Source: Mesotoga prima MesG1.Ag.4.2
GTDB taxonomy: Bacteria; Thermotogota; Thermotogae; Petrotogales; Kosmotogaceae
Assembly (NCBI RefSeq): GCF_000147715.2
Contig: NC_017934.1
Span: 930,001-994,000 of the forward strand
DNA length: 64,000 nucleotides
Reading direction: 5' to 3'
In this document: positions 37,827-62,632 of the stretch, piece by piece
Numbering within the stretch: position 1 is the first letter of the stretch
Layout of the letters: every line of letters starts with the position of its first letter
The notes under the pieces: model-generated
Database searches by the model: none
Seen by the model: only the letters and a program-made list of their open reading frames with translations
What the model was told of the DNA's origin: nothing
Program-made: the position numbers and the translations under genes

Positions 37827-37869
37827 TAGACAATTCTCTTTGGGAATGAAAACTTGGGTGGGGGGAATC

Positions 37870-42189: not shown

Positions 42190-43008
42190 CTATTTTTCGA
42201 ACGAAGCCATCGAGAATTTCTCGTTGCCTTTGTTTAACCAGCGCGCTTCAAATATCTTCAGATCTTCTTCCAGGGATAACCTGAAACTCTCTTCGCAGGA
42301 TCCGAAGAAGTCGATAGGACTCACAGAAATAAATCCTCTATCTATACTCACATAGTCAAGATCTTCCTCGTGAGAATCGTAGAGGATTTCCTTCTTCATC
42401 CAGAATTCTTCTTCGCCCCATTCATTGACTTTCTTCTCAAACCAGCGCCTCTTAAGCAAACCGCCGGGTCTCGTACAGTTTATGCCTTTAATCCTGTTTC
42501 GAGGAACTGCCGGAACGTTAACATTTAGAACTGTATGCTTTGGAAGCTTTTTCCAGTCGTACTCCCTCACGAAGTTTTCCGAAAAATCAACCGCTGCGAG
42601 AAAATCTGGATTCTCTTCACTGGCAATCGATACCGCCATCGCCGGAATCCCATGAATTCTTGCTTCAAGCGCCGCCGAGAGAGTACCCGAGTACCTAACA
42701 TCCACTCCTAGATTCTGACCGTAATTTATCCCACTCACTACCAGGTCGAAATTCCCTAGGCCCTTGATTACCGAAGCTGCGACTACACAGTCTGCAGGAG
42801 TCCCACTTGTGCAGAAGGAGGAGACATTTTCCACCGTGCTTCTTTCCCTTATTTTCACCGGAGTTAACCAAGTTATTGAATGACTTACCCCGCTTCGGTT
42901 ACTTTCTGGAGCGATTATTGTGACCTCATGAGCAGCTGAAAGCTTTTTTGCAAGCGATCTTATTCCTGTTGATTCTATTCCATCATCATTAGTCAATAGT
43001 ATTCTCAA
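42190..43008 (-). CDS. surE: 5'/3'-nucleotidase SurE
   Basis: Metal-dependent nucleoside monophosphate phosphatase (272 aa). N-terminal ILLTNDDGIESTGI with the metal-binding Asp pair, APESNRSGVSHSIT, GTPADCV and VVSGINYGQNLGVDVRYSGTLSAALEA are diagnostic. TTG 43008 follows GGTGGTGAATTC. It lies downstream of the permease gene in reverse order and may be separately transcribed. Confidence 0.94.
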   Translation of the reverse strand: MRILLTNDDGIESTGIRSLAKKLSAAHEVTIIAPESNRSGVSHSITWLTPVKIRERSTVENVSSFCTSGTPADCVVAASVIKGLGNFDLVVSGINYGQNLGVDVRYSGTLSAALEARIHGIPAMAVSIASEENPDFLAAVDFSENFVREYDWKKLPKHTVLNVNVPAVPRNRIKGINCTRPGGLLKRRWFEKKVNEWGEEEFWMKKEILYDSHEEDLDYVSIDRGFISVSPIDFFGSCEESFRLSLEEDLKIFEARWLNKGNEKFSMASFEK

Positions 43009-43077: not shown

Positions 43078-45111
43078 TCAGTCATACTCTATTCCTTGAT
43101 CACGGAGATTCGAGCTGTAGATTAGCCTCAGAGAACTTCGAAAGAAAATCAGCAGAGGTACTACCCCAATTACCGATGCAGCACCAAAGAGATTCCACGA
43201 AGTGTAGTAGCTTCTCACTTCTCCCACATAGCTGAATATTCTAAGAGAGAAAGGCATCAGCTCCTGGCTGTTAAGAAGAATCAAGGGCGTGCTAAATGAA
43301 CTGAACGACGAAACCATTACGTACACCAGAAGACCTCCGATTACAGGCAATGAAAGCGGGATTAAGATTTTCACCAGGTAGCCAGTTCCAGATAATCCTT
43401 CCAACAGGGACACTTCTCGGAGCTCTCTCGGAACCGAGGAAAAGAATTCAGCAAGAAGGATTATCGTAAGGGGAAGGGACTGAATGCAAACAACTATCCC
43501 AATCCCAAAGAGACTGTCAGTTAGACGGAGCTTATCGAATACGAAATACATCGGAAGCAGAGTATGCATTCCAGTGTAGAGACTGCCAAATAGAATTATT
43601 GAAGCCAAACCTTTCACAAGCATAGACTTTCTCTGTGAGAAAAGGTATGAGAAGGGTATACCTGCCATTAGCAGGATTAAGGAGGCCCAGAAGGCGATAA
43701 TAATTGTATTAAGAATATTCGACATAAGTCCGTCGGAAATGACTCTGCCAAAATTTGCAAGAGTCATTTCACTAAGTGAAGGCATTATGTCTGAATCAGC
43801 GGCAAAAGAAAGCACAAGAATATAAATGACTACCAAGGCCGTCGGTATTAGGCACAATACCATCAGTGTTCTCTTCAGCCAGCCCGGGATAGTGAAATCG
43901 ATAATCGGGAACCTGTATCTTAGTGAGAACAAAATTAGCGGTACGCTTAATAGGGTAGCGGGAACTATTCCACTTACTCCCCTCTGTACTACTCCCAATA
44001 TGGTTATTAGAACTTCATATATCAAAAGTGTCCCTACGAGGAGTCTGAAAGTCTTCCTGAATCGTGGGATAATTAGGGGAAGAATTGAGTATCCTAAAAT
44101 TACGGGGAGCAGAAGCAAATTCAAGCCTGTGAAAAGCCCAAGAAATACATGGGCTGCACTGCTCAGAAATAGTACATGCCTGTGCCTTTTCGGAACATCC
44201 CCTCTTGAAAAGAGGGCACCCAGTATCCAGATTAGCGAAAAACCCCCAACAAACACCGCGTAGGCTGAAAGAAGCCCATAATCTTTAACGGAGCTAAACT
44301 TCCTGAACAAAGCAATACCAAGAAAAGTTGTCGAGCCGGTTAAGGTATTCGGAGTGAACCCCTCCGGCAAAAGAGGACCGTTACCAGTCATGAGAAAGAC
44401 AGATGTGAATTCCTTCATTGATCTCGCAAGCTGAAAAAAGAAATAAGGAATAAGCAGAAATCGTATCTCTCCGAAAAGAATGCTAGAGGTATAAATATCG
44501 CCCGTTCCGTCGATCTTCATTACGTCATCAAGTTCTTTAGAGACTCTTCCCAACATTCCGAGAATTATCATTGTAGACAGAGGTAATGAAAGCCAAATGC
44601 TTACGAAAAGAGAGGATGTAAATGCTTGAAAGGCGTTGAGAGTTATGTCGATTTCCGTCCCAAGGACAATGTTAAATAACGAATACCCTCCATATCCTTG
44701 GACAAGAGCCCTCCAACCCGAGACTGTAATGAATGAAGGTATGAACCAGCCGACTCCAAGAAGAATAAGACTGGCCTTACTTAACTTAGTTGCCTTTCTA
44801 AGTCTCAATGCAATTAAGAATGACAGCAAGATCTCAATCGATGTCTTGAGAGTAGACCACAATGCGGTAAGTCTTAGAGAGAGCTTGAAACCAGAGTCTC
44901 CAAGTACCTCTTCGAAGTTCTTCAGACCAGAAAAAACAGGAGCCTGTTGAAAGACCCCGTATTCTGTGAAAGAAATGTAAATTGCCCAGAGTATAGGCAC
45001 AATGGTAGCTACTCCCAGTATTAAAGTCACTGGCAAAACCATGGACCACTTATTTCTTAGTAAAAGAGAGAGCAGACACAGTGCAAAGAAGATCGGCAAA
45101 ACTACCGACAT
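43078..45111 (-). CDS. Fused MalF-MalG-type ABC transporter permease
   Basis: 677 aa: two permease modules in one chain. The N half (to about 330) has YISFTEYGVFQQAPVFSGLKNFEEVL and an ATPase-contact loop ELDDVMKIDGTGDIYTSSIL..LIP. A middle part of about 100 residues adds several TMs. The C half (about 410-677) has NFGRVISDGLMSNILNTIIIAFWAS and a second loop REVSLLEGLSGTGYLVKILIPLSLP. Fusion of the two carbohydrate-type permeases is uncommon. It starts 2 nt from the binding-protein stop and is the last gene of the purine-type operon. The likely ATPase is divergent at 59170. Confidence 0.88.
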   Translation of the reverse strand: MSVVLPIFFALCLLSLLLRNKWSMVLPVTLILGVATIVPILWAIYISFTEYGVFQQAPVFSGLKNFEEVLGDSGFKLSLRLTALWSTLKTSIEILLSFLIALRLRKATKLSKASLILLGVGWFIPSFITVSGWRALVQGYGGYSLFNIVLGTEIDITLNAFQAFTSSLFVSIWLSLPLSTMIILGMLGRVSKELDDVMKIDGTGDIYTSSILFGEIRFLLIPYFFFQLARSMKEFTSVFLMTGNGPLLPEGFTPNTLTGSTTFLGIALFRKFSSVKDYGLLSAYAVFVGGFSLIWILGALFSRGDVPKRHRHVLFLSSAAHVFLGLFTGLNLLLLPVILGYSILPLIIPRFRKTFRLLVGTLLIYEVLITILGVVQRGVSGIVPATLLSVPLILFSLRYRFPIIDFTIPGWLKRTLMVLCLIPTALVVIYILVLSFAADSDIMPSLSEMTLANFGRVISDGLMSNILNTIIIAFWASLILLMAGIPFSYLFSQRKSMLVKGLASIILFGSLYTGMHTLLPMYFVFDKLRLTDSLFGIGIVVCIQSLPLTIILLAEFFSSVPRELREVSLLEGLSGTGYLVKILIPLSLPVIGGLLVYVMVSSFSSFSTPLILLNSQELMPFSLRIFSYVGEVRSYYTSWNLFGAASVIGVVPLLIFFRSSLRLIYSSNLRDQGIEYD

Positions 45112-45112
45112 A

Positions 45113-46216
45113 CTATCTTATAGAGTCAATGTAAGACTGCGCACCAGAAAGAGCCTGGTCAACAGTCATTGCTCCGCTATATATTGCTTGCAATGCGGGT
45201 TCTAGAGCCTCAAACAAAAGAGACTGATATCCCGGGAGATTCGGCATGAACTTACCTTGGTTAACTACCGATTCCAGCTCTTGAGGAGAGTCGGAACCGA
45301 ATAGTGGATACTTGTCGTACTCTACAAAGAAGTCATGACTATGCTCGTTCAGAAAGCCAATAAAACTCATGCACTGCTCACAGGTATCACTATTGAATAG
45401 TGCAAAACCCTTAGAGTCAATGATACCTCTTACTTCTACGCCTTCAATATTGGGAAAGGGTAACATCACGAAGTCGGGACCTTTTTCCCTGAATTTGGAG
45501 GCCATGTAGCTTCCCTGAAGCATTATACCTATCTTACCCTGAGCAAAGAGCTTGTTCATTGCGGCTCTCTCCAGTCTCGAAATCACTCCATTGTCGAAGT
45601 ACTCCTTAATTTTAGATACTATTTCTCTACTTCCGGAGGCTCCGATATTTAGTTCGTACAGTTCCTCTTGAGACATGAGAGCAGAGACATAAGGGAACAT
45701 TACGTAAGGAGATGTGAAATCAAATGCTATTGGGTAATCAACAACTCCAGTAAGGCTCTCCTTTATAGCTTCGAATTGATCAAAATCAAGTTTCTCTCCC
45801 AAAACGATACCAGCTTCTTCAAAAGCATTGAGATTGACAAAGGCGACCTGACAATCCGCGTAAAAGGGAACGGCGGTAATTTCGCCGTTCCATACGTAGG
45901 CGTTCAGAAATTTCTGAGAGTAGCCAGTAAGACTGGCAAGATTGAGACTTAGACTGCGTCCAGATGCAGCGACATCTCCCACATAAGTATCTTTTATCAT
46001 AGCAGCATCGGGAAGGTACCCTGTCTTCAGGTTTATGTTCAGTTTTTCTTCAATCTTTGGGAAGTAAACAATCTCAACATCAATCCCTGTCTCTTCTTTG
46101 AATGCGGCGGCGGCATCCCTGTAGAATTTCTCCCCTTCCCAGCTAACCCAGAAGGTTATGCCAAACACTGCAGAGCATACTAAAATGACAAGGACAGATA
46201 GAAACAATCTCTTCAT
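45113..46216 (-). CDS. Extracellular solute-binding protein, family 1
   Basis: 367 aa with signal peptide (MKRLFLSVLVILVCSAVFG). The mature N-terminus TFWVSWEGEKFYRDAAAAFKEETGIDVEIVYFP is the family 1 pattern; AMNKLFAQGKIGIMLQGSYMASKFREKGPDFVMLPFPNIEG is the usual hinge region. Its ribosome site (GGAGGTATGAA) lies inside the last codons of the molybdenum subunit and the ATG overlaps that stop, so it is translated with the catabolic operon. The ligand is unknown; context suggests a purine-derived or ureide compound. Confidence 0.9.
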   Translation of the reverse strand: MKRLFLSVLVILVCSAVFGITFWVSWEGEKFYRDAAAAFKEETGIDVEIVYFPKIEEKLNINLKTGYLPDAAMIKDTYVGDVAASGRSLSLNLASLTGYSQKFLNAYVWNGEITAVPFYADCQVAFVNLNAFEEAGIVLGEKLDFDQFEAIKESLTGVVDYPIAFDFTSPYVMFPYVSALMSQEELYELNIGASGSREIVSKIKEYFDNGVISRLERAAMNKLFAQGKIGIMLQGSYMASKFREKGPDFVMLPFPNIEGVEVRGIIDSKGFALFNSDTCEQCMSFIGFLNEHSHDFFVEYDKYPLFGSDSPQELESVVNQGKFMPNLPGYQSLLFEALEPALQAIYSGAMTVDQALSGAQSYIDSIR

Positions 46217-46217
46217 T

Positions 46218-48530
46218 TCATACCTCCATGTTTAAAATTTCGAATAGAACTCGTTCGCTCTTGAATGGAGCATGTCTTAGGCGAATTCCTGTAGCATCGA
46301 ATATCGCGTTCGCTATAGCAGGAATCGGTGTGTCGATTCCTATCTCCCCTATGCTTTTTGCCCCGAAGGGACCTGTAGGTTCATAGCTGTCGACAAGTCT
46401 GCAAGTAAGCTTTCCGTAGTCCATCCGGGAAGGGACTTTATAAGTGAAGAAATCGTTGGTAAGCATCCTTCCGTTCTTTCCGTAAATGATATCTTCGAAG
46501 AGGGCCCAACCAATTCCTTGCATAGAGGCGCCTTCAAGCTGTCCAATCGCTTGTATGGGATTTAGAGCTACTCCGCAATCTGCATATGACACAAAATTCA
46601 ATAGTGTAATTTTCCCGGTATCGGTGTCAACTTCAACCTCCGCAAAACTCGCTGCAAATGGCGGAGGGGATTCTTCGCCCACGAAGGAAGCCGACTCGGA
46701 GATCTGTTGTTGATTGAAAGTATACATGTGCACAGTGCAGAGTTCAGACAGCGATACAGAGGGACCGTCCTTACAAGTAATTATCCCCGACTGGAGCGAC
46801 AGTTCCGACACACTTCTTTCCAGATATTTACCTGCAAGTTCAAAGAGTCTGTCCTTGACTTTTTCGGCGGCTAGCCTAACTGCGTTTCCCGATACATAAG
46901 TAGTACTGGAAGCGTACGCCCCCACATCGAACGGGGTGATATCTGTATCGGATGAATACACGATGACTCTTTCCAGCGGAACCGTGAGAACCTCAGCTGC
47001 AATCTGTGCAAGAATCGTATCACTTCCTGTCCCAAGATCGGTTGCCCCGACGAGAAGGTTGAATGAGCCGTCTTCGTTCATCTTTATTGTGGCCGCACCC
47101 ATATCTACTTTTGGTATTCCCGAACCCTGCATTGCGAGGGCACAACCAACTCCTCGAACTTTACTTCCATTTCTGATCTTCTTCCCTCTCTTACTCTCCC
47201 AGCCTATTTCGTTCTTTCCAAGATCGATGCATTCTTGAAGTTTGCAGCTTTTTATAGTTTGAGGGACGCCTTCTCTTCCTTCTCCCATTATCTCGAAAAT
47301 CGGAGATGTTTCCCCTTCTCTTATTGAGTTTACTTCTTTGAGTTTAAGAGGATCCATCTTGATCTCGTAAGCAAGCTCATCAATGGCACAATCGAGCGGG
47401 AAAAGGCCCTGCGGTGCTCCATATCCTCTGTACGCTCCGGCCGGAGGAAGGTTCGTATAAACTATGTCTCCGCCAAAATGAACGGCTTCCACTTTGTTGT
47501 AAAGTGGCAGGGTCTTCGAACCGGAAACCATAAAAGTTGTGAGAGAATGTTCCCCGTAAGCCCCTGTATTTGACATCCCATTCAGGGATATTGCCTTTAT
47601 CTTTCCATCCTTCATCGCTCCCACGGTGACATCGAAGCTCATTTCATGACGGATATTTGTCGCCATAGAAACTTCTTCTCGTGTGTAAGTGATTCTTGCA
47701 GGTTTACCTGTCCTGAGAGTTACGAATGCTGCGTATGGCTCGACTATCACAGACTGTTTTCCACCAAAGCCACCACCTATTCTCGGTTTGATCACGCGAA
47801 TGTCGGCAATTGGTTTATTCAATATATGAGAGAGGATTCTCCTGCAATGAAAGGGTACTTGAGTTGAAGTGATTACTATGAGCCTCCCGACGGAGTCCAA
47901 ATATGTAAGCGCGTTGTGTGGTTCAAGCGCTGCGTGAAGCTGTGTGTCGATATGATAAGTCCTCTCGATCACAACATCACAAGTCTTGAGCGTTTCTTCG
48001 ACATCTCCGAGATCCATTTCATAATGCGCCGCAATGTTTCTGGATTTGTCGTAGACTCCAGCGCATTCGCTTTCATCGTGAATGATCGGCGCCCCCTCTT
48101 TTGTAGCTTCTTTCATTTCTAAGACGGCATCGAGGATTTCATACTCAACTTTGATATTTCTCAGTGCGTCTTTTGCTGCTTTCTCAGTCTTCGCAGCTAC
48201 GATTGCCACTGGATCACCTACGTATCTAACCTTTCTATCCAGGAGAAAGGTGTCGTACGGTGACGGTTCGGGATAGCCCTGACCGGCCCTTGTATATGGT
48301 ATCCTCTCGACATCACTGAAAGTGAAGATATCCACAACATCGTTAATTAACTTTGCTTGCTCCGTTTCAATATTTTTTACTAAAGCGTGGGCATGAGGCG
48401 AGCGAAGTAACTTGACGACTAGAGCGTCTGGCATGTCGTAGTCTGGAGTGTATACCGGTTTACCTCTGACTATTGCAAGACCATCCACCTTCCTTTTTGG
48501 TTTTCCTACGGTCACGAAGGAATCAGTCAT
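46218..48530 (-). CDS. Xanthine-dehydrogenase-family molybdenum-binding subunit
   Basis: Molybdenum hydroxylase large subunit (~770 aa). Motifs: SPHAHALVKNI at the N domain, HAALEPHNALTYL, the cofactor loop RIGGGFGGKQ, GAYRGYGAPQG (Arg of the xanthine-type site), GATDLGTGSDTILAQIAAEVL, and the catalytic Glu in FGAKSIGEIGIDTP. Hydroxylates a purine or related heterocycle with electrons passed to the 2Fe-2S and FAD subunits. ATG 48530 follows AGAGGTGA and overlaps the 2Fe-2S gene stop. It resembles XdhD/XdhA of the E. coli region. Confidence 0.92.
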   Translation of the reverse strand: MTDSFVTVGKPKRKVDGLAIVRGKPVYTPDYDMPDALVVKLLRSPHAHALVKNIETEQAKLINDVVDIFTFSDVERIPYTRAGQGYPEPSPYDTFLLDRKVRYVGDPVAIVAAKTEKAAKDALRNIKVEYEILDAVLEMKEATKEGAPIIHDESECAGVYDKSRNIAAHYEMDLGDVEETLKTCDVVIERTYHIDTQLHAALEPHNALTYLDSVGRLIVITSTQVPFHCRRILSHILNKPIADIRVIKPRIGGGFGGKQSVIVEPYAAFVTLRTGKPARITYTREEVSMATNIRHEMSFDVTVGAMKDGKIKAISLNGMSNTGAYGEHSLTTFMVSGSKTLPLYNKVEAVHFGGDIVYTNLPPAGAYRGYGAPQGLFPLDCAIDELAYEIKMDPLKLKEVNSIREGETSPIFEIMGEGREGVPQTIKSCKLQECIDLGKNEIGWESKRGKKIRNGSKVRGVGCALAMQGSGIPKVDMGAATIKMNEDGSFNLLVGATDLGTGSDTILAQIAAEVLTVPLERVIVYSSDTDITPFDVGAYASSTTYVSGNAVRLAAEKVKDRLFELAGKYLERSVSELSLQSGIITCKDGPSVSLSELCTVHMYTFNQQQISESASFVGEESPPPFAASFAEVEVDTDTGKITLLNFVSYADCGVALNPIQAIGQLEGASMQGIGWALFEDIIYGKNGRMLTNDFFTYKVPSRMDYGKLTCRLVDSYEPTGPFGAKSIGEIGIDTPIPAIANAIFDATGIRLRHAPFKSERVLFEILNMEV

Positions 48531-48996
48531 CCAGTTCACCTCTCATCACTTTTGCTGCCTTCTTGATTGCTCTGTTCTGCGGTTCGTAGCCAGTACATCT
48601 ACAAATATTGCCATTTAGCGCGAGTTTTATCTCTTCGTCAGAGGGATCGCTATTCTCTCTTAGCAGAGCTTCTCCTGCCATTATTAGTCCAGGGATACAG
48701 TATCCACATTGGGCACCCCCTTCTTCGAGAATAGCTTCTTGAATTGGGTGAAGCTTTTCTCCATCTGCCATTCCTTCGACAGTCTCGATGTTTTGACCGT
48801 CAACCGAGGCTGCAAAAGTAGAACAAGAGAGTATTGGTTTGCCGTTCAAGAGAACTGTGCAAGTGCCGCAACTTGCCGAATTACAGCTTCTTCTGACACT
48901 TTTGTAGCCGATTCTTCTCAGTACATCGAGCAGGTATTCTCCTGGATCGATATCGATATCATGAAGTTTCCCGTTAACTGTAAGAGCTATTTTCAT
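48523..48996 (-). CDS. 2Fe-2S subunit of molybdenum hydroxylase (first)
   Basis: 157 aa XdhC/CoxS-type. N-terminal ferredoxin cluster CNSASCGTCTVLLNGKPILSC and the alpha-helical second cluster CGYCIPGLIMAGEALL..NGNICRCTGY are complete. Start overlaps the FAD-subunit stop (ATGA); it precedes the Mo subunit. Together with the FAD gene at 48993 it forms a complete three-gene hydroxylase. Confidence 0.94.
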   Translation of the reverse strand: MKIALTVNGKLHDIDIDPGEYLLDVLRRIGYKSVRRSCNSASCGTCTVLLNGKPILSCSTFAASVDGQNIETVEGMADGEKLHPIQEAILEEGGAQCGYCIPGLIMAGEALLRENSDPSDEEIKLALNGNICRCTGYEPQNRAIKKAAKVMRGELDD

Positions 48997-49829
48997 GTGA
49001 TCATCTCCTTAACCTTTTCAGCAGCTCTCTGGGCAAGGACGGACGCGAGATGTTTTCTATACTCGAAAGAAGCGGTCATGTTAGATCCTCCAGAGAAGCT
49101 TTCGTAAACGAGGCTTCTAACTATCGCAGGCATTACATCGTTTATCTCCAGGTCTGTCATTGCCGCTTCGACGCTCTCGAATCTCGCTGGATACTGAGGT
49201 CTCGATCCACATACGACCCTGGCACCCTTTATTCGGTTACGTTCGGGAATAATCGAGAGACCAACATTTACGGTTGCAATGTCGAAAGTAGTCTTAGAGA
49301 ACTTTTCGAAGGCCGAAACCCAGCCGTCTCTCTTCAACATTACATGGGTAATTAGAGGCTTTTCTCCTGTAGGTAAAGAAAAATAGTCGGATACTAACAT
49401 CCTCTGATATCCGTCTACCCCATAGATCATAAGACTAGAACCCGTTGTTAGAAGGCAGGTGCTCACATCCGACCATCCAAGTTTTGGAGCGACCGAGCCA
49501 CCTATTGTTGCCATGTTCCTGATCTGCCAGGAACCCACTAATGAGAAGGCGTCGTAGAAGAAGTCATCGAATTCCTTCCTGATAACTGGGTCCTTTCTAA
49601 AGGATTCAATAGTCGTAGTTGCTCCGACAACTATTTCACCCTCCGTAACTGAAATTGTGTCAAGTCTAAGAAACTTCAAGTCGATTATCTTTTCAATTCT
49701 TGAGGACTCCATAAGTGCTACAATTGTCCCTCCAGACAAGAAAATCGAATGATCTCTGTCATTCTGCATAAGTTCGTAAGCCTCTTCGACTGTCTTAGGT
49801 CTGAAGTACTCGTTTACATTAGACAGCAT
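48993..49829 (-). CDS. FAD-binding subunit of molybdenum hydroxylase (YgfM-like)
   Basis: 278 aa CoxM/YgfM-type. It has YFRPKTVEEAYELMQNDRDHSIFLSGGTIVALM (FAD loop), QIRNMATIGGSVAPKLGWSD (second FAD motif), and a C-terminal CO-dehydrogenase flavoprotein domain. The ASPAGD form of the second FAD motif is replaced by APKLGWSD, as in YgfM-like proteins. ATG 49829 overlaps the upstream FAD gene by about 11 nt. Confidence 0.9.
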   Translation of the reverse strand: MLSNVNEYFRPKTVEEAYELMQNDRDHSIFLSGGTIVALMESSRIEKIIDLKFLRLDTISVTEGEIVVGATTTIESFRKDPVIRKEFDDFFYDAFSLVGSWQIRNMATIGGSVAPKLGWSDVSTCLLTTGSSLMIYGVDGYQRMLVSDYFSLPTGEKPLITHVMLKRDGWVSAFEKFSKTTFDIATVNVGLSIIPERNRIKGARVVCGSRPQYPARFESVEAAMTDLEINDVMPAIVRSLVYESFSGGSNMTASFEYRKHLASVLAQRAAEKVKEMIT

Positions 49830-50658
49830 TGTACCCCTTCTTTCTCCAGACTTTTAGAGTTCTATGAATCAGATTCCTTACTACAGTGGTCCGATACCAG
49901 GCGGTCGCTCTAACATCATCAATGGGTGTCACACATTTCATAGCTAGTTCGACAAACCGCTCTTCGTCAAATGACCCGTTCTTTGCAGAGTAGTATTCAC
50001 AAGCCTCGATCGGTACGACAACGGTCGGCGCAACAGATCCAAAGGCAAGCCTAATTTCCGACTCAGAAGTCAACGATCCAACGGAAGCGACCGAAATGGC
50101 CATAGAATTCCTCTGACCAACCTTGTAGAACTGCGGGAAGAGAGCGTCAGTCTTCTCAAATGTTATTGACTTTACGAATTCTCCTCTTGAAAGAGTTGTC
50201 TCCCCAGGACCCTTTATGAAGTCCACCACTCTTTCATACCTCTCACCATTTGCGCTTCCTATTGACAGACTGGCGTTCGTGAGAACCATCGCAACTATCG
50301 AATCCCCGGCGGGGGAGGCATTAACAATGTTTCCAGCAAGAGTGGCGCGGTTTCTAATCTGTGGACTCCCTATTTGTCTTAAGGCCATCTGTACGATTCT
50401 TCCGTGTCGGTCGATTATTTCGCTCTTCAAGAGTTCGGAAATCGTTACCCTGCAGCCAACTCTTATCTTGTCGCCGAGATCCTCAATTGTGTCAAGGCCC
50501 TTTAGATGTTTAAGGCTAACTACAATCTTAGGAATCACTCTCTTCAACCTTATCTTTACGATAAGGTCGGTGCCGCCTGAGAGAATGTGACTTCTTTCCT
50601 TCGAAAGAAGAGAAACTAGCTCCTCTTCACTGGTTGGCATTAGAACGTTGAATGACAC
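49819..50658 (-). CDS. FAD-binding subunit of molybdenum hydroxylase (XdhB-like)
   Basis: ~279 aa. FAD motifs SHILSGGTDLIVKIRLKR and QIRNRATLAGNIVNASPAGDSI are canonical; the C-terminal domain continues to the stop. GTG 50658 is chosen because GGAGGTGAGG lies just upstream; a longer frame begins at 50703. It is next to a second FAD gene, so the operon has two flavin subunits but one Mo subunit. Confidence 0.91.
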   Translation of the reverse strand: MSFNVLMPTSEEELVSLLSKERSHILSGGTDLIVKIRLKRVIPKIVVSLKHLKGLDTIEDLGDKIRVGCRVTISELLKSEIIDRHGRIVQMALRQIGSPQIRNRATLAGNIVNASPAGDSIVAMVLTNASLSIGSANGERYERVVDFIKGPGETTLSRGEFVKSITFEKTDALFPQFYKVGQRNSMAISVASVGSLTSESEIRLAFGSVAPTVVVPIEACEYYSAKNGSFDEERFVELAMKCVTPIDDVRATAWYRTTVVRNLIHRTLKVWRKKGYNAV

Positions 50659-50721
50659 TAACCTCACCTCCGGATTTCTCGAGCAAAATGATGCTTTTAG
50701 CAAAATCTCAAGAACACCTCA

Positions 50722-51294
50722 TCAGATTTGCAGTCTATCTTCTGGCGAATCTATATCGAATACATTACGCTCACTGCCTTCTATTTCACGGATTTTCGCC
50801 TGTCCATTCTTAACAAGTTGAAAAGCACCCCTATCTCCAGTGATTTTCAAGAGCTCGGGAAATAGTTTCTTTGCTATGAATGTCGGGAAACCCTTTCTTC
50901 CGTCATACACAAAGGAGACCATCTCATCTTCAGGGAGAAGTGACTCCAGAAGAAACTCGACATCTTCTCCGCTAACCAAAGGCATATCGGCAAGCATGAG
51001 TACAATTCCAGTGCGCTCTTCAGCACATTCGCAAAGTCCTCTAACTATGCTGGTCGAAATTCCCTTTCTGTAATCATCATTTATCAATATTTTGAAGCTT
51101 CCCGTATCGAATCTATTGAGTTCGAAGCCAGGCTTAATAATTAGAAACTTGTTAAGAACACCAACATTCTTCAGATTATCGAGAGACCATTGCAGAAGAG
51201 GCTTTCCCCTAAAATTAGAACAGAGCTTCTCATCTCCAAAGCGACTGGATTCCCCTGCCGCCAGAAGAATTAGCGAAACAGAATTACTTTCCAT
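50722..51294 (-). CDS. MocA-like molybdenum cofactor cytidylyltransferase
   Basis: ~190 aa NTP-transferase. Signature LILLAAGESSRFGDEKLCSNFRGKPLLQW, LMLADMPLVSGEDVEFLL, GRKGFPTFIAKKLFPELL and RGAFQLV. MocA attaches CMP to molybdopterin, forming the MCD cofactor used by xanthine-dehydrogenase-family enzymes, which fits its place among the subunits (compare E. coli ygfJ/mocA). ATG 51294 overlaps the 2Fe-2S gene stop. Confidence 0.88.
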   Translation of the reverse strand: MESNSVSLILLAAGESSRFGDEKLCSNFRGKPLLQWSLDNLKNVGVLNKFLIIKPGFELNRFDTGSFKILINDDYRKGISTSIVRGLCECAEERTGIVLMLADMPLVSGEDVEFLLESLLPEDEMVSFVYDGRKGFPTFIAKKLFPELLKITGDRGAFQLVKNGQAKIREIEGSERNVFDIDSPEDRLQI

Positions 51295-51760
51295 TAGTTT
51301 TCCTGAGGTTTTCTGCGGCGGTCTTAATTGCCTGGACAATCTTGTAGTAACCTGTGCATCTACAAAGGTTGCCTTCGATTGCCTCCATTATCTCTTCATC
51401 GCTTGGCGAATCGTTTCTATCAAGAAGGGCCTTTGCCGACATTATCATGCCTGGAGTACAGAACCCGCATTGGACAGCTCCTTCGTCTACAAAAGCCTTC
51501 TGAATGGTGTCTAGTTCCCCATCCTTTGAGAGACCTTCAATTGTGGTTACCTCTGAACCATCGATTTCGGGAAGAAGAACGAGACAGGAATTGACTGCCT
51601 TCCCGTCGATGATTACGGTACAGGCGCCGCACTCCCCTTCGCCACAGCCTTCTTTTGTTCCAGTTAGGCCCAGTTCATCACGCAAGAAGTCCAGTAGTCT
51701 CATATCTTCGACTACATCCATTGATAACCGTTCATTGTTTAGTGTGAAGCTGATCTTCAT
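51284..51760 (-). CDS. 2Fe-2S subunit of molybdenum hydroxylase (second)
   Basis: 158 aa XdhC-type. CGEGECGACTVIIDGKAVNSC and CGFCTPGMIMSAKALL..EGNLCRCTGYYKIVQAI complete both cluster sites. It has a different sequence from the first 2Fe-2S subunit. With the XdhB-like FAD subunit it would make a second electron-transfer pair without its own Mo subunit in the window. ATG 51760 has GAGGAGG; it overlaps the upstream PLP gene. Confidence 0.93.
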   Translation of the reverse strand: MKISFTLNNERLSMDVVEDMRLLDFLRDELGLTGTKEGCGEGECGACTVIIDGKAVNSCLVLLPEIDGSEVTTIEGLSKDGELDTIQKAFVDEGAVQCGFCTPGMIMSAKALLDRNDSPSDEEIMEAIEGNLCRCTGYYKIVQAIKTAAENLRKTNGK

Positions 51761-52988
51761 TTAGAGCCTCCTCAATTGCATCTTTTACCGGTGACAAAGT
51801 CTCGACCTTTGGAAGCACATATGAAACGCTCTTAAGGTCCTTCAAACCATTTCCAGTTACCACGATGACAACACTATTTCTTTCGTTCACAATACTCAAT
51901 CTTCTGGCCTTCTTGAAGCCTGCAAATGCCGTAGCGCCTGCCGGTTCGGCGAACACACCGGTTTCTCTGGCAAGTTCAATTATACTCCCGAGAATCTCAC
52001 CGTCCGAAACGGAAAGAAACAAACCATTATGCTTCTGTGTGTACCTGCAAGCCTTAAAAACGTCTCTTGGCTTTCCCACACTGATGCTGTCCGCAACCGT
52101 TCTTGCCTCGATATCTACTGGCTCAAATGGGTATCCTCTTTCATAAGCTCTCATTATTGCGTTTGAACCTTCTGCCTGAACTCCTACTATGGTTGGAATT
52201 TTAGAGATCACACCGAGCTTCATCAAATCTTCAAACCCTTTGTAGAAACTTGACAAGACAGTACCATCACCTGCCGAAACAAAAACAAAATCCGGTAGTC
52301 TGTCTTTCGTCTTGAATGCGATTTCCATTGCACAAGTCTTCTTCCCCTCAAGAAGGTATGGATTTATTGCGCTATTTCTACAGTACCAACCCTTTGACAT
52401 ACCGATTTCCATCGACAAATCGAATACCCGGTCGTAGCTCGCATTTATTGCCAGGATTTTTGATCCATACACCTGTAGCTGAGTAATCTTGGCGGCAGGA
52501 GCTGTAGCGGGGACGAAGATCACGCTCTTCAGTCCACTAACAGCTGCAAATCCCGAAAGCGAGCTGGCTGCATTTCCCGTTGAAGCGCAGAAAACGGTAT
52601 CGAAAGACTTTTCTTTCGCCTTTAAGACTGCAACACCGCTTGCTCTATCTTTAAATGAAGCAGTCGGATTCCTGCCGTCGTCTTTAAGGAGTAACTCCGA
52701 TACTTTGTATTTTTCTTCCAAAAAATGGTTTCTATATAGAGGAGTATTGCCTACGAAGAGCCTTGGAGTATCGGTACAATTCTCAAATGGCAAAAGAAAA
52801 TCAAATGCCCAAATACCCCTGTTGTTGAGATCGACCGAAGAAGATTCGTATTTTTCTCTCACTTGATCAAAGTCGTAAACGACTTCCAGGGTTCCTCTAC
52901 GCTCGCCGCAAACTGGACAATAGTATTCCTCTTCCTCTTCTGAAAACTCCTTTCCGCATGTTATACATTTGAGAAGAAACTTGCTCAA
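51732..52988 (-). CDS. Threonine-synthase-like PLP-dependent enzyme
   Basis: ~418 aa fold type II PLP protein. An N-terminal zinc ribbon CITCGKEF..YYCPVCGERRG is followed by the PLP-Lys motif NPTASFKDRASGVAVL, CASTGNAASSLSGFAAV, VSAGDGTVLSSFYKGF and C-terminal VVIVVTGNGLKDL, all of the threonine synthase type. In E. coli this position holds ygeX (diaminopropionate ammonia-lyase), also fold type II. It may carry out an equivalent ammonia-lyase step or be a recruited threonine synthase. TTG 52988 overlaps the preceding stop codon (TTGA) and has GGAGGTG upstream. Confidence 0.86.
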   Translation of the reverse strand: MSKFLLKCITCGKEFSEEEEEYYCPVCGERRGTLEVVYDFDQVREKYESSSVDLNNRGIWAFDFLLPFENCTDTPRLFVGNTPLYRNHFLEEKYKVSELLLKDDGRNPTASFKDRASGVAVLKAKEKSFDTVFCASTGNAASSLSGFAAVSGLKSVIFVPATAPAAKITQLQVYGSKILAINASYDRVFDLSMEIGMSKGWYCRNSAINPYLLEGKKTCAMEIAFKTKDRLPDFVFVSAGDGTVLSSFYKGFEDLMKLGVISKIPTIVGVQAEGSNAIMRAYERGYPFEPVDIEARTVADSISVGKPRDVFKACRYTQKHNGLFLSVSDGEILGSIIELARETGVFAEPAGATAFAGFKKARRLSIVNERNSVVIVVTGNGLKDLKSVSYVLPKVETLSPVKDAIEEALNEDQLHTKQ

Positions 52989-54064
52989 ACCAGGACACCT
53001 CCGATTGCAGCAACTGGGCAAATGGATTCACAAAGTCCGCAACCAAAGCATTCCGCTGAATCTACCTCCACTTTTTCCTGAAGACTGAGTGCAAAATACG
53101 GGCAGACCTCCACGCAAAGACCGCATCTAGTGCACTTATCATGATCAATTACAGGATTTCTTACGGTAAAGGACTCTTTCTGGTCCTTTGCAGAGCCAAC
53201 TGCTTCTTCAACGCTTTTAAAACCTCTCTTTTCCAGAGCCGAGGGAAGCGATTCGAGAATTCTCTTGAATATCCCCTTTCCCCTTATCAGGGCTCCCGAC
53301 AACATTTGAACTGCAGAAGCCCCGGCGCATAAGAAGTCTACGACATCGTCTGCGCTGACAATCCCGCCTACTCCAATTATAGGGAGAGTACAACCTTCAC
53401 GAATTCTTCTCACCGATGAGAGGGATAGCCGCCTTATTACCGGTCCGCTAATCCAACCGAAACCGTCCCTGCTTCCTAAATAAGAACGATTTACTCTCCG
53501 GTCCATGGGGTAAACCGGACCCAGTGAATTGATAGCGACGATTCCGTCACCACCTGATTCCTGAACAACTCTCGCCATCTCCGCTGGATCGGGAACGGAA
53601 GGATCGAATTTCAGAAAGACAGGCTTTTCAGTTCCCGCTTTTACTGCAGAGATAAGCTCTCTGATAAGCGACGGATCATCGGCAACATAATGAGTTGACA
53701 ACTCAAAAGCATCTGCGAATTTGGCGAATCGTGGGACCAACTTTCTTAAGTCCTCTGGTGAATAGCCTAGGCTAACGATTAAAGGAAGCGCTGATTCCTT
53801 CCTGTAATCTGGAAGAAATTCATTAAGCCATTTTTCAGGTGAGAATTCACTCCAAAGCTCTGTGTTTATTACGAAGTCCCTTTCTGCGATAATGCATGGT
53901 CTGGGAACCTTGGCTGCAACCGTTGATATTGTTTTTGTTACCATTGCACCTACTCCCATTGCCTCTATTGCGCGCATTTTTCTCTGGTCGCCGGTTAGTG
54001 GCCCGGAAGCGGGCATAAGGGGATTCTCTAGATGAATCCCGGCTATCTCAGTAGCGAGTTTCAC
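52985..54064 (-). CDS. Dihydroorotate-dehydrogenase-like Fe-S oxidoreductase (PreA/YgfK-like)
   Basis: 359 aa. An FMN-binding TIM barrel of the dihydroorotate/dihydropyrimidine dehydrogenase type: IHLENPLMPASGPLTGD, TKTISTVAAKVPRP, VAINSLGPVYPMDRR, GVGGIVSADDVVDFLCAGASAVQM. The C-terminus has two 4Fe-4S clusters: CTRCGLCVEVCP and CFGCGLCESICP. The barrel probably reduces or oxidises a ring or hydantoin intermediate; in E. coli this role is assigned to ygfK-type genes but the domain layout differs. GTG 54064 follows GAGGAGGTG. Confidence 0.9.
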   Translation of the reverse strand: MKLATEIAGIHLENPLMPASGPLTGDQRKMRAIEAMGVGAMVTKTISTVAAKVPRPCIIAERDFVINTELWSEFSPEKWLNEFLPDYRKESALPLIVSLGYSPEDLRKLVPRFAKFADAFELSTHYVADDPSLIRELISAVKAGTEKPVFLKFDPSVPDPAEMARVVQESGGDGIVAINSLGPVYPMDRRVNRSYLGSRDGFGWISGPVIRRLSLSSVRRIREGCTLPIIGVGGIVSADDVVDFLCAGASAVQMLSGALIRGKGIFKRILESLPSALEKRGFKSVEEAVGSAKDQKESFTVRNPVIDHDKCTRCGLCVEVCPYFALSLQEKVEVDSAECFGCGLCESICPVAAIGGVLV

Positions 54065-54075
54065 CAGGCACCTCC

Positions 54076-55374
54076 TCAGAACCTTTTTTCAAAAGCTTTG
54101 TAAAGCTTTCTAGCCTCTTTGTATATATCATCTTCATTAACTCTTGTGGGTCTTCCTTCCGCCAGCACTCGTTCACCACCTACGAAAGCGTCGCTGACCG
54201 CAATGTTTTCGCATATACCAAAAAAGAAATGGTCGACGAAGTTCTCAGCCGTGATTTCAGTCGGGCTCTTATAATCTAGAAGAATGAAGTCTGCGCTGCT
54301 CCCTTCCCTGATTGTACCGAGATTTACACCAAAGGTCCTTGTTGCCAGATCGTAGTTTGAGCCAAAAAGCGAACGGCCGATATCACCTGAAGAACTAACT
54401 TTCGGATCACGGTAAATGTAATGAGGGCAAAGGATCAGGAACCGAACATCGTGACACAGGTTGAACCCGTACCCGTCATTTCCCAGAAGTATTCTTATGC
54501 CTTCATTAGCAAAGTTTCTCCATTCTGGAAAGCCAACGCCATTGTTCACGTTGGATTGACAGTTTACGACGATGTATCCTCTTGAATCTTTGACAAGAGT
54601 CCTTTCGGAAGGTGTAGTGTGGATGCAGTGAGCGTAGATCGAATTTTCGGTCATAAGTCCTGCCCTGCGAAATCTTTCCAGAACTCTCGAGTCATGAACA
54701 CTAACTGTGTATTCCTGATCTTCAGGTCCCTCCGCGACATGGACATGTATGGGAATCTTTCCTGCTATCTCTCTTGAAGCAAGGGAAAGCGTTTCATTAG
54801 ATAAAGTGAAGGAGGCATGGAGTCCGAATATGCCCTTTCTGTATGCCGAGCTTTCGCTGCTAAAATCCAAATTCTCCCTTATCCCTTTATCGCGCCGCTC
54901 CGTTCCGTCTCTGTCCGAAACCTCGTAAGCTCCACAGTATCTTAGGCCAACGGAATTCACGGAAGAAGCGATACCTCGAAGAGAACCCTCTATTGCATTT
55001 GGAGAGGAATTATGGTCAAAGAGAGATGTAACTCCGCTCTTAAGAGATTCTGTGGCAGCCACATAGGCGGAGATCTTGAGATCTTCTACTGTCATTGCTC
55101 TATCCAGTCTCCACCACAGTTGCTCAAGTAATTTCGTGAAAGACGAAGGGTTGAATGGAGCTACTTTTAACCCTCTTGCGAACGTTGAATATATGTGAGT
55201 ATGGGCATTAACTAGAGATGGCATGAGCAACTTACCTTCGAAATAGAAGTTTTCGCCGTCATACGCGCTTTCTCCGGCTGCTACCTTGACTATCTTTCCA
55301 TTTTCTACCCTTACGAATCCCTTTGGAATATAATCTCCATCATTTGTATAAATCGAAACGTTGTTTATTTGCAT
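54076..55374 (-). CDS. ssnA: SsnA-type amidohydrolase
   Basis: Metal-dependent hydrolase (432 aa). Metal site VNAHTHIYSTFARGL, HVHVAEGPEDQEYT, YAHCIHTTPSE and LLGNDGYGFN (Asp) are in place; the C-terminal beta-sandwich part follows. SsnA of E. coli lies in the ygfK-ssnA-ygfM-xdhD region. Likely a deaminase or ring-opening hydrolase acting on a purine-derived intermediate. It overlaps the hyuA stop region by 10 nt. Confidence 0.88.
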   Translation of the reverse strand: MQINNVSIYTNDGDYIPKGFVRVENGKIVKVAAGESAYDGENFYFEGKLLMPSLVNAHTHIYSTFARGLKVAPFNPSSFTKLLEQLWWRLDRAMTVEDLKISAYVAATESLKSGVTSLFDHNSSPNAIEGSLRGIASSVNSVGLRYCGAYEVSDRDGTERRDKGIRENLDFSSESSAYRKGIFGLHASFTLSNETLSLASREIAGKIPIHVHVAEGPEDQEYTVSVHDSRVLERFRRAGLMTENSIYAHCIHTTPSERTLVKDSRGYIVVNCQSNVNNGVGFPEWRNFANEGIRILLGNDGYGFNLCHDVRFLILCPHYIYRDPKVSSSGDIGRSLFGSNYDLATRTFGVNLGTIREGSSADFILLDYKSPTEITAENFVDHFFFGICENIAVSDAFVGGERVLAEGRPTRVNEDDIYKEARKLYKAFEKRF

Positions 55375-56747
55375 GTGCCTTTCTCCCAGTAAATGTTCTC
55401 TCTTTCAATGAAGCGTCCCGAGGCTTTCGGTAAAAGGATGTCACCGTTCTTAAAGGCCAGTTTCCCTCTGTGAATTACGGTTTCTACGGAACCTCTAAGT
55501 TTTATACCCTCAAACAATGAGTGGTCTGACCGTGTGTACCGTGACCTCGATACAGTGCTTTGCACATCTCTATCGACAATGGCGATATTAGCAATGCTTC
55601 CTGGAGCAAGAACTCCCCTCTTTGGAAAGAGGCCGAAAATTCTCGCTGGATTTGTCGAAAGAAGTGAGGAAACCCTTTTGAGATCACCATCGAGGATCGT
55701 GTTGATGGTTGCGAAGGAAATACCCAGCGAGCCAGTACCGTTAGGTATCGTGGGGTAATCGTCTCGATTTTCCCATTTTTCCCTGTTGAGGAACGGGCAA
55801 TGGTCTGTTCCAATAGAAGATATCTCTCCTTTACGAAGCGCAGATTGAAGAAGAGCGCGCTCTTGATCTGTCCTCGGTGGCGGGCAGTATGTGTTCAGGT
55901 ATCCTTGGTCGGTTTTTAGTGGATCATTATTTAGTAGTAGGTACTGCGGACAGGTTTCAAGTTTTGTGAACCTTCTCCAGTCGAGGCCAAGGGAAGAAAG
56001 AGCTTCAACTGTTTTTCCGCTTGAAACATGAACGATATAAAGCTGTCCTTCTTCTTCCAGAGAGATAAGCGAAAGCATTGCGACTTCGGAAAGCTCACTA
56101 ATAGTCGGCCTAAGAGATGAGATATCTCTGTAGGTTGGCCTGGAGAATTCTTTTTCCCTTTCTCTTATTATCTCATCGTTCTCCGAATGGGCCATCAAAA
56201 CGAATCCAAGCTTTCTTGAGAGTGAAAGCAGACTGTAAATCATCCCATCGTTCGAACGCCTACCGGAAGAGCTATACGTAGTGAAGACCTTTATCGAGGG
56301 CATCTTGGCGGCTATTGACGATCTAGCGATTTCTTCCGCGGAGAAGCTCGGATTGCCAGCCAAGGTTACGTGAAATGAGTAATCTACTCTGCTGTCCTTA
56401 GCTGCTGTCATTCTATCTCTCTTAGCAGCTTCTAATTGCGCAAGATCGGAGATTGGATCGAGAAAGTCGATAAGCGTCGTTACTCCACCACTCAGAGCAA
56501 GAGACGATCCAGATTCAAAGTTATCGGCAGAAGTGTATCTTCCTAGAGCCAGGCCTAGATGCACATGGGGATCTATGAACCCGGGAAGCAGGAAGAGACC
56601 AGAGCAGTCGATACTCTCCTTTGCCGGCAACTTCTCTTTAATCGAGGAAATCACTCTTATTTCCTCACCCTCAACGTAAACGTTTGCAGGAAAGAGTCCA
56701 TTCTCCGTGCATACCGTTCCATTTTCGAGGGCAAGGTCATAAGTCAC
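55365..56747 (-). CDS. hyuA: Dihydropyrimidinase/hydantoinase-type cyclic amidohydrolase
   Basis: 460 aa. The urease-superfamily site is complete: GFIDPHVHLGLAL, carboxylated Lys in PSIKVFTTYSSSG, LMAHSENDEII, YIVHVSSGKTVEAL and SIGTDHCPFLN (Asp). Opens cyclic imide or hydantoin rings; allantoinase-like activity is the alternative. GTG 56747 overlaps the ygeW stop (GTGA). The track fits E. coli hyuA (ygeZ). Confidence 0.91.
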   Translation of the reverse strand: MTYDLALENGTVCTENGLFPANVYVEGEEIRVISSIKEKLPAKESIDCSGLFLLPGFIDPHVHLGLALGRYTSADNFESGSSLALSGGVTTLIDFLDPISDLAQLEAAKRDRMTAAKDSRVDYSFHVTLAGNPSFSAEEIARSSIAAKMPSIKVFTTYSSSGRRSNDGMIYSLLSLSRKLGFVLMAHSENDEIIREREKEFSRPTYRDISSLRPTISELSEVAMLSLISLEEEGQLYIVHVSSGKTVEALSSLGLDWRRFTKLETCPQYLLLNNDPLKTDQGYLNTYCPPPRTDQERALLQSALRKGEISSIGTDHCPFLNREKWENRDDYPTIPNGTGSLGISFATINTILDGDLKRVSSLLSTNPARIFGLFPKRGVLAPGSIANIAIVDRDVQSTVSRSRYTRSDHSLFEGIKLRGSVETVIHRGKLAFKNGDILLPKASGRFIERENIYWEKGTCK

Positions 56748-57733
56748 GATCTTCCACCCATTGTAAGAGCCATGATAGCTTTGGCCGTATGCAATCTGTT
56801 TTCTGCTTCGTCTATGACAACTGACTGTGGGCCGTCTATTACTTCATCCACTACTTCTCTGCCTCTGTCGGCGGGGAGTGCATGCATGTAAATGGCCCTC
56901 TTGTTTGCCAGCTTCATTCTCTCTGGAGTGCATATCCAATCTTTGTTTCTTCTCACTTCCGTCATTATTTCCTGGGGATCGTCTGAAACATAGAACCCTC
57001 CCCATGATTTCGGAATCACAATATCAGCATCTCTGAAGGCTTCATCCATATCGTGAAGTATCTCCAGCCTGGCACCGCTTCCTTCTGCATTCTTCTTCGC
57101 CAGGTCAACGATATCCGGCATTAAGTCAAACCCTTCGGGATATGCCAGTTTGACGTCCATTCCGTATCTTGTAAAAAGAAGAATCTGTGACTGGGGAACG
57201 GAAAGAGGCTTCAAATGGCTTTCAGCATAAGCCCATGTGATGGCAACTTTCAGTCCGCTAAGATTTGCTCCGAATCTCTCGCGCATTGTCATTATGTCAG
57301 CCATGACCTGCATCGGGTGATAGATGTCATCCTGGAGATTCAGGATGGGTACATCTGCATTTTCTGCAAGAGATCGAAGGTAGGAATTCCCGACTTTGAA
57401 CTTGCAATGTCTTACTGCTATCGCGTGACCGTATCTTGAAAGGATCATCGCGGTATCCCTCGGAACCTCTCCATGTGCCGTCTGCATTGTCGATGGATCT
57501 AGATAATGCGCGTGACCGCCAAGCTGTGTAATTCCCGCTTCCATCGAATTTCGAGTTCGCGTAGATTGATCGAAGAACATCAAAAACACGGTTTTGTAAG
57601 GAAGCAAAGGTGTGGGGTCATTTGTTGCAAACCTTCTTTTGAGATCAGAAGATAAATCTAGCATAAGGTCGATTTCAGTTCTGTCGAAATCTTGTGTGGT
57701 AATGAAGTCTTTGCCTCTCAAAATGCTACTCAT
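56744..57733 (-). CDS. ygeW: YgeW-type carbamoyltransferase
   Basis: 329 aa aspartate/ornithine carbamoyltransferase family. Carbamoyl-phosphate site FFDQSTRTRNSMEAG and the HPMQVMADI motif are present; RHC, the MHALPADRGREVVDEV loop and LHTAKAIMALTMGG end fit the YgeW subgroup rather than ordinary ArgF (HCLP). It may run in the phosphorolytic direction to yield carbamoyl phosphate and hence ATP. ATG 57733 has TAGGAGG. Confidence 0.9.
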   Translation of the reverse strand: MSSILRGKDFITTQDFDRTEIDLMLDLSSDLKRRFATNDPTPLLPYKTVFLMFFDQSTRTRNSMEAGITQLGGHAHYLDPSTMQTAHGEVPRDTAMILSRYGHAIAVRHCKFKVGNSYLRSLAENADVPILNLQDDIYHPMQVMADIMTMRERFGANLSGLKVAITWAYAESHLKPLSVPQSQILLFTRYGMDVKLAYPEGFDLMPDIVDLAKKNAEGSGARLEILHDMDEAFRDADIVIPKSWGGFYVSDDPQEIMTEVRRNKDWICTPERMKLANKRAIYMHALPADRGREVVDEVIDGPQSVVIDEAENRLHTAKAIMALTMGGRS

Positions 57734-57749
57734 TATGTTACCTCCTAAT

Positions 57750-58940: not shown

Positions 58941-58972
58941 TTTTGTCACTCCCATGCATTAGTATTTTCTTC

Positions 58973-62350: not shown

Positions 62351-62632
62351 AGCTTCTGGGTCCGGGTATTTTGGACTTTCTCTCAGAACAGCGATTCATT
62401 GCTTCTAATGACAGATGGAAACAATCTCCAGATTGAATAACGGGTCAGTCTTTCGAAGGAATTCGTGAGTGATCCTATCTTTTCAAAGAACGAGAGAGAA
62501 GCGATATCCTGGGTCTGGCGAGCGATATCCGATTCTGTTGGCTTCTCAGGGAGCTTCTTGAGCGGGAGCACTCGGTGTTATAATTACTGCGGTATTCTGC
62601 CGTTTTCAATTTCTGAAAAGGGAGGGTTCTGT
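62351..62632. promoter_or_regulatory. Promoter region of the sugar binding protein, with direct repeats
   Basis: 282 bp. TATAAT at 62579-62584 is preceded by TGT (extended -10) and by TTGAGC at 62558-62563 (15-nt spacing). AGCGATATCC occurs twice, at 62500-62509 and 62521-62530, exactly 21 bp apart. Each copy contains a GATATC palindrome, so they look like a tandem regulator site. Confidence 0.55.

Follow-up and report, generated by a model that had tools for sequence, protein, structure and literature searches.

A fused MalF-MalG-type ABC permease paired with a MalE-like binding protein and, in the family of Mesotoga prima, with a purine-type operon

Among described ABC importers, those closest to the system considered here are MalFGK2-E and SugABC-LpqY, with which it shares two permease kinds recognizable in both sequence and fold, a MalE-like binding protein, and EAA-type contact helices. 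Unlike either of them, it has a single permease chain with four extra helices, its operon includes no MalK gene, and its context is a purine operon. ThiP is a single-chain permease. FbpB of the ferric importer FbpBC (PDB 9j4r) likewise carries two permease modules in one chain, although this chain comprises 490 residues in the structure versus 677 in the fused permease. In sequence, the fused permease was not closest to FbpB or ThiP: a profile of the fused family (alignment A1, described below) scored SugB at 1.2e-35 and MalF at 4.6e-27, and matched FbpB only weakly, at 1.4e-5. Since FbpB is already a single-chain permease, the fused permease adds a variant to a known architecture. Among the papers listed by literature searches for fused MalF-MalG proteins and fused ABC permeases, no title or abstract opening mentions such a fusion. 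As for purines, the passages on transporters, permeases, and ABC systems in the report on the reductive uric acid cluster (Li et al. 2025, PMC12507026) name UacT for bacterial urate uptake and no ABC importer, and the word stem Thermotog is absent from its main text.

We analyzed a stretch of 64,000 nucleotides of M. prima MesG1.Ag.4.2 (NC_017934.1, positions 930,001 to 994,000), referred to as the window; genomes and loci used for comparison carry G and L labels, respectively, and "own" genus and family are those of the window genome. The gene at 43078..45111 on the minus strand encodes 677 amino acids in a frame that is open throughout, the plus strand there being full of stops. Two BPD_transp_1 stretches were found in this chain by Pfam, i.e., the two modules of a CUT1 permease, and all six NCBIfam models that matched it with an E value of ≤1e-3 were of CUT1 type. 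The N-half (residues 21-302, 44206..45051, minus strand) matched MalF (residues 59-288), GlcT (residues 24-207), and UgpA, whereas the C-half (residues 410-677, 43081..43884, minus strand) matched GlcU (residues 416-657), MalG (residues 463-663), and UgpE. Each module has an EAA-type ATPase-contact loop in both sequence and model, and the corresponding contact helices lie at residues 192-201 (44509..44538) and 562-570 (43402..43428) of the minus-strand gene. The residues of the N-half loop depart from the usual EAA, but Gly202 is kept in all 29 aligned fused sequences, as is Glu566 of the C-half loop. Relatives with as little as about 26% identity still had an open frame throughout, so the fused frame is not a chance one, and dN/dS values of 0.06-0.11 in both halves, where measurable, indicate purifying selection. 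An earlier note, made from the letters of the sequence, had described this gene as a MalF-MalG fusion in one 677-residue chain, with two ATPase-contact loops and an extra membrane region of about 100 residues. Family matches, tree, and structure agree with it on the fusion, both loops were found, and the extra region, a gap in two-gene MalF/MalG pairs, came to about 105 residues. Thus, the product of 43078-45111 is a MalF-MalG fusion, real and conserved.

The first structural model of the fused permease, predicted from six fused rows, was poor (pLDDT 57). Alignment A6, in which five fused and six two-gene MalF/MalG loci were entered as aligned rows, gave a better one (pLDDT 77.2, pTM 0.79). 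In this model, one helix precedes the N-half, which has six core helices and the contact helix at 192-201; four extra helices follow, and then the C-half with six core helices and the contact helix at 562-570. Both contact helices are short and lie between the fourth and fifth core helices. By VIA-align, the best match of the whole chain was FbpB (9j4r_A; Z 23.4, 471 aligned residues, rmsd 3.9, model residues 33-667), while the N-half was matched to SugA (7cad_A; Z 18.6, rmsd 2.7, 274 aligned, model residues 14-303) and the C-half to MalG (2r6g_G; Z 20.8, rmsd 4.5, 265 aligned, model residues 405-677). Foldseek agreed, placing the N-half on SugA (7cad_A, TMt 0.85) and the C-half on SugB (8hps_B, TMt 0.76). 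Because both halves match complete permease folds, the model holds two such folds and not a single one, which would have spoken against the fusion. The shared fold shows no substrate.

The extra membrane region separating the two halves (residues 303-409, 43885..44205, minus strand) is delimited by the gap in two-gene relatives, by the model, and by conservation. Residues from about 310 to 410 are absent from six aligned two-gene MalF/MalG pairs, which marks the region, of about 105 residues, as real, and its four helices are predicted at 308-328, 332-347, 353-381, and 384-396. Its mean pairwise identity over 29 sequences was 0.30, compared with 0.45 and 0.41 in the N- and C-halves, but single positions are strongly kept: Tyr341 and an acidic residue at 366 (Asp/Glu) in 29/29, Gly378 in 28/29, and Phe355 in 26/29. 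For dN/dS, two pairs were usable and gave 0.17 (window and L009) and 0.09 (L010 and L013), synonymous sites being saturated in the other three pairs. That a tyrosine and an acidic residue are conserved within helices predicted to lie in the membrane hints that this region does more than join the halves. Its length varies, as four shorter fused relatives have 44 to 95 residues between reference positions 300 and 412, where the reference has 112.

Some separate MalG proteins also carry membrane extensions. In Poseidoniales and some marine bacteria (L102, L109, L119, L124, L139, and L164), a long MalG carries an N-terminal hydrophobic extension of three to four segments, and in L102 a frame of 890 codons additionally appears to join a binding protein to MalF. 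In profile comparisons, the MalG cores of the long proteins and the fused permease aligned at 1e-40, and the match between their extension and the extra region was not significant (E value of 0.084).

A match to the fused permease at an E value of ≤1e-30 was found in 42 of 103 Thermotogota genomes. Both halves lie in one frame in 40 of the 42, the matches in G018 and G003 being contig-end fragments; those with both halves in a single frame include G083, G007, and G001, the last cut by the contig start. These frames are mostly 640-695 residues long, and the more distant ones are 543-616. The earlier note had asked whether homologues share the fusion, and across the Thermotogota relatives they do. 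The own genome has one full-length fused copy among 31 matches. Several own-genus genomes have a second, distant fused copy; the two that we read (L091:8135-10066 and L092:8841-10781; 643 and 646 residues) have no counterpart in the own genome. These copies, one of which (L091) is followed by a protein matching the GanS model, indicate that fused permeases are not confined to the purine operon. A wider contig scan found at least 184 relatives, of which 80 loci were kept and 63 read. Among the matches listed, both halves shared a single frame in L095-L099 from Thermotogota and in L100 from a DHVE2 archaeon, and we took the remaining loci of the 63 for separate genes or fragments. No relative of the fused permease was confirmed in the viral contigs searched.

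Alignment A1 (29 sequences) contains the window protein and 28 of 37 loci, leaving aside the fragmentary L024 and the loci L001-L008 of the own genome. For the tree, we used 13 N-halves, 13 C-halves, 12 MalF chains, and 12 MalG chains over 260 columns; FbpB, ThiP, and L100 are outside this set. N-halves plus MalF were split from C-halves plus MalG with a support of 1.0, and both N-halves (0.993) and C-halves (0.976) were monophyletic, with similar branching in the two. Each sampled half thus forms one clade beside separate MalF or MalG chains, which points to a probable single fusion of two paralogues. Another origin, in which one module was duplicated internally, is ruled out, since the N-half groups with MalF and the C-half with MalG. 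The fusion would most simply be placed once and early in Thermotogota, as judged from the sequences.

The DHVE2 protein (JALWEL010000201.1, L100:9494-12364) resembles the window permease in having MalF-type and MalG-type modules with several hydrophobic segments between them. It differs in its length of 956 amino acids, in an extra N-terminal domain, and in having directly downstream a MalK-like gene with canonical LSGGQ and switch histidine, of which the window operon has none. It is possibly an independent fusion.

The gene of a MalE-like solute-binding protein (45113..46216, minus strand) ends 1 bp before the start codon of the permease. Its product matched Pfam SBP_bac_8, the MalE model of NCBIfam, and Thermotoga maritima MalE1 (5e-15), and thus falls into the SBP_bac_1/SBP_bac_8 kind that goes with CUT1 importers. 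A binding-protein gene adjoins the permease gene on its upstream side in 28 of 29 loci, the exception (L033) having fewer than 600 bases on that side. It lies downstream in the two own-genus second copies and in G083, and in G006 (L222) another frame stands between the two genes. The constant companion of the fused permease is therefore its binding protein, not the degenerate ATPase discussed below.

Directly upstream of the binding protein, again with a 1-bp gap, lies the gene of a xanthine dehydrogenase XdhA-like subunit (46218..48539, minus strand). The rest of a purine/urate-type operon follows on the same strand (48523..58955), its listed frames being spaced by -56 to +18 bp. It encodes XdhC-like and XdhB-like proteins (two each), a MocA-like protein, a threonine-synthase-like PLP enzyme, a PreA/UacX-like reductase of the dihydroorotate-dehydrogenase type with a ferredoxin domain, SsnA-like and hydantoinase/HyuA-like proteins, a YgeW-like carbamoyltransferase, and YgeY. 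Downstream of the permease, after a gap of 69 bp, is the gene of a SurE 5'/3'-nucleotidase (42190..43008, minus strand), so that the whole operon runs from YgeY (58955) to SurE (42190) and comprises 15 genes, whose listed frames are spaced by -56 to +69 bp. SurE occupies this place in 8 of 10 own-genus genomes, including that of the window, and in no other of the 29 loci. Xanthine dehydrogenase subunits of the FAD type and of the 2Fe-2S type are each encoded twice within 48523-51760 (minus strand), but the operon has only one molybdenum subunit gene.

By family, these genes match the reductive urate cluster as it is laid out in the main text of PMC12507026, whose members XdhD/XdhA, UacX-type (PF01180), SsnA, HyuA, YgeW, YgeY, and the PF00291 enzyme have counterparts here. 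Named individually, the counterparts in the window are those of SsnA, XdhA/D, UacX or YgfK, HyuA, YgeW or UacY, YgeY, and YgeX. YgeY scored above its NCBIfam cut-off (596 versus 321 bits), whereas SsnA (381 versus 444 bits), YgeW (231 versus 453 bits), and HyuA scored below theirs, and the model matched by the PF00291 enzyme was that of threonine synthase and not that of diaminopropionate lyase.

On this basis, we lean toward the view that the system is a MalE-FG-type ABC importer with a fused permease that has been turned to purine-type substrates and is likely driven by a shared MalK-like ATPase. The fused permease is the membrane part of a type I importer of MalFGK2 (CUT1) type, with MalF-type and MalG-type chains joined via a four-helix membrane insert; as sequence, tree, and model show, the two sides of the translocation path and a pair of unequal ATPase-contact helices come from one chain. 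With its even number of helices, the insert would allow the MalG-type half to keep its normal start on the inside, if the predicted in/out topology holds. The MalE-like protein, to judge from the gene pairing, would capture the substrate and dock on the fused chain. In the own family, the pair may serve the purine/urate degradation operon, and the operon and neighboring genes make a purine-type substrate most likely, for instance urate, xanthine, or a nucleoside. ATP would probably be hydrolyzed by a MalK-like ATPase that several importers share and whose gene lies elsewhere, and not by a dedicated pair of 59170-60093 products. The purine operon has no ATPase gene, and canonical MalK-like genes lie elsewhere in the own genome, among them those at genome positions 872505, 1991879, and 2791114; a MalK-kind gene directly beside the fused permease was recognized in none of the loci with flanks read, except for archaeal L100.

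If the substrate is a purine, the system would bring in urate or xanthine by an ABC route, whereas PMC12507026 names only the UacT permease, and would widen the range of cargo for MalE-like systems. In any case, many families within a single phylum have kept this fusion of unequal MalFG-type chains and, with it, a conserved membrane insert. A bolder reading adds that an importer re-purposed for urate or another purine, spread through Thermotogota and apparently undescribed in the papers listed by our searches, uses the insert, with its invariant tyrosine and acidic residue, in gating, coupling, or regulation; this combination we regard as unlikely. Among the papers listed by literature searches on purines, Mesotoga, and Kosmotoga, none concerned purine import in these genera.

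The best-surviving alternative, to which we assign a lesser but real likelihood, is that the fused permease is an importer of carbohydrates or glycosides that merely sits in a purine operon. Every sequence family matched by the permease (GlcU, MalF, MalG, GlcT, UgpA, UgpE, and SugB) concerns sugars or glycerol phosphate, and the binding protein is MalE-like. Moreover, the fused permease occurs away from recognized purine genes: in wider flanks of four f7 genomes (G008, G010, G012, and G013), whose frames were judged by their first 60 residues, no purine gene was recognized, nor was one found next to the two own-genus second copies, of which that in L091 lies by the GanS match. Against this alternative, XdhA precedes the binding protein directly in all 17 own-family genomes, spread over five genera (the count comprises the window, G025, and 15 loci with flanking genes). 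A purine neighbor was also found independently in a genus of another family (g9), where an adenine deaminase gene (597 bits, cut-off 472) lies directly downstream of the pair in all three genomes examined (G038, G039, and G043). In a third family, G003 has a YgeY homologue, 65% identical to that of the window, on the same strand 1.6 kb downstream (L229:756-1934). Furthermore, no glycosidase gene was recognized in the own-family or g9 neighborhood, as judged without a carbohydrate-enzyme library.

Two arguments considered in this connection were dropped. One was that the own family has no other purine transporter: Xan_ur_permease (PF00860) is present in 15 of its 17 genomes, so another purine route exists, while PF02133 is found in none of the 17, and both are missing from G019 (99% complete, one contig) and G030 (78% complete). 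The other concerned the binding pocket. Two tryptophans of T. maritima MalE1, which we take to be pocket residues, are replaced by tyrosines in the window protein, but a change from tryptophan to tyrosine is also compatible with a sugar and does not serve as proof of a purine.

The ATPase gene nearest to the operon raises the question of the motor. It lies at 59170..60093 on the plus strand, divergent from the purine operon and 214 bp away, and encodes a degenerate MalK/UgpC-like protein with an LPAGM signature and an asparagine at the position of the switch histidine. The protein belongs to a distinct family, set off by a score gap (members at ≥277 bits, other ATPases at ≤253 bits), in which Walker A and B are intact, the signature is mostly LP[AED]G[MIL], and Asn or Ser replaces the switch histidine; of the members read, only that of G004, with LSEGH, departs from the LP type in its signature. 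Apart from 59170-60093, family loci are L038-L067, and a homodimer of such a protein would give two non-canonical ATP sites.

That a homodimer of 59170-60093 is the dedicated motor, with the asymmetric single-chain permease compensating for the damaged ATP sites, is a proposal that we consider improbable, although several observations speak for it. Besides its divergent position in the window, the ATPase gene lies beside the permease operon in G023, G026, G027, G028, and G029, i.e., in 6 of 10 own-genus genomes with the window included, the two being on different contigs in the other four. Permease and ATPase occur together in 16 of 17 own-family genomes. In two genomes (G023 and G026), the ATPase stays by the purine operon while a UgpB-like gene is elsewhere, and most stretches read around the ATPase outside the own genus have no UgpB-like gene nearby: none was found in those of G004, G008, G010, G014, G015, G032, G033, and G034, or of G046, G048 (where one lies about 9 kb off), G100, G101, and G102, and the one near the ATPase in G019 is a match of only 25%.

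Against a dedicated motor stand, first, the distances within the own family, as over 1 Mb separates the ATPase gene from that of the permease in single-contig G019 and G021, which belong to other genera. Second, the ATPase keeps company of another kind, which in some relatives is that of Ugp-like genes for glycerol-3-phosphate. In the window, it is followed by a GDPD gene and the gene of a UgpB-like binding protein (62465..63928, plus strand; mature part taken from 62630), which was assigned by the UgpB model (E value of 2e-92; 310 bits, below the cut-off of 411), and permease-like frames follow beyond the window end. UgpB-like and GDPD genes also follow the ATPase in G035 and G036, in the former with two permease-like frames between, as judged from sequence, and a UgpB-like gene lies within 6 kb of it in G020 and G021. 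On the same contig and a few kilobases from the ATPase, the UgpB-like gene was found in the window, G024, G027, G028, G029, and G031.

Third, the genome counts do not follow the idea, put forward in the earlier note, that homologues of the fused permease might always co-occur with the degenerate ATPase. The 103 Thermotogota genomes include 42 with the fused permease, 36 with the degenerate ATPase (in G003 on score alone, and in G026, where the gene is masked, from other matches and motifs), and 23 with both. Over all genomes, 19 had the permease only, 13 had the ATPase only, and 48 had neither, which gives a Fisher p value of 0.0007 with kinship ignored, and this value is carried by the own family. 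Outside it, both occurred in 7 genomes, the permease only in 18, the ATPase only in 13, and neither in 48 (Fisher p = 0.58, kinship likewise ignored). Of the 25 genomes with the fused permease outside the own family, 18 thus lack the ATPase. Strict co-occurrence is ruled out by these counts. The ATPase is thus probably not a dedicated partner of the fused permease, and we tentatively assign it, as a possibly shared component, to a Ugp-like importer.

Finally, that the product is a binding-protein-dependent sensor or scaffold that performs no transport is very improbable, for although the operon has no dedicated ATPase gene and the N-half contact loop departs from EAA, both contact helices are kept, the two halves are under purifying selection, and the model shows complete permease folds.

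With the purine-type importer as the preferred reading, two systems lying side by side in the window can be told apart, namely, an importer that probably takes up purines and a Ugp-like system whose ATPase is degenerate. Farther along, no Pfam match at 1e-4 was obtained for the product of 39338-40627 (plus strand), which nevertheless resembles that of the neighboring gene at 37735-39183 on the same strand, both being multi-helix membrane proteins.
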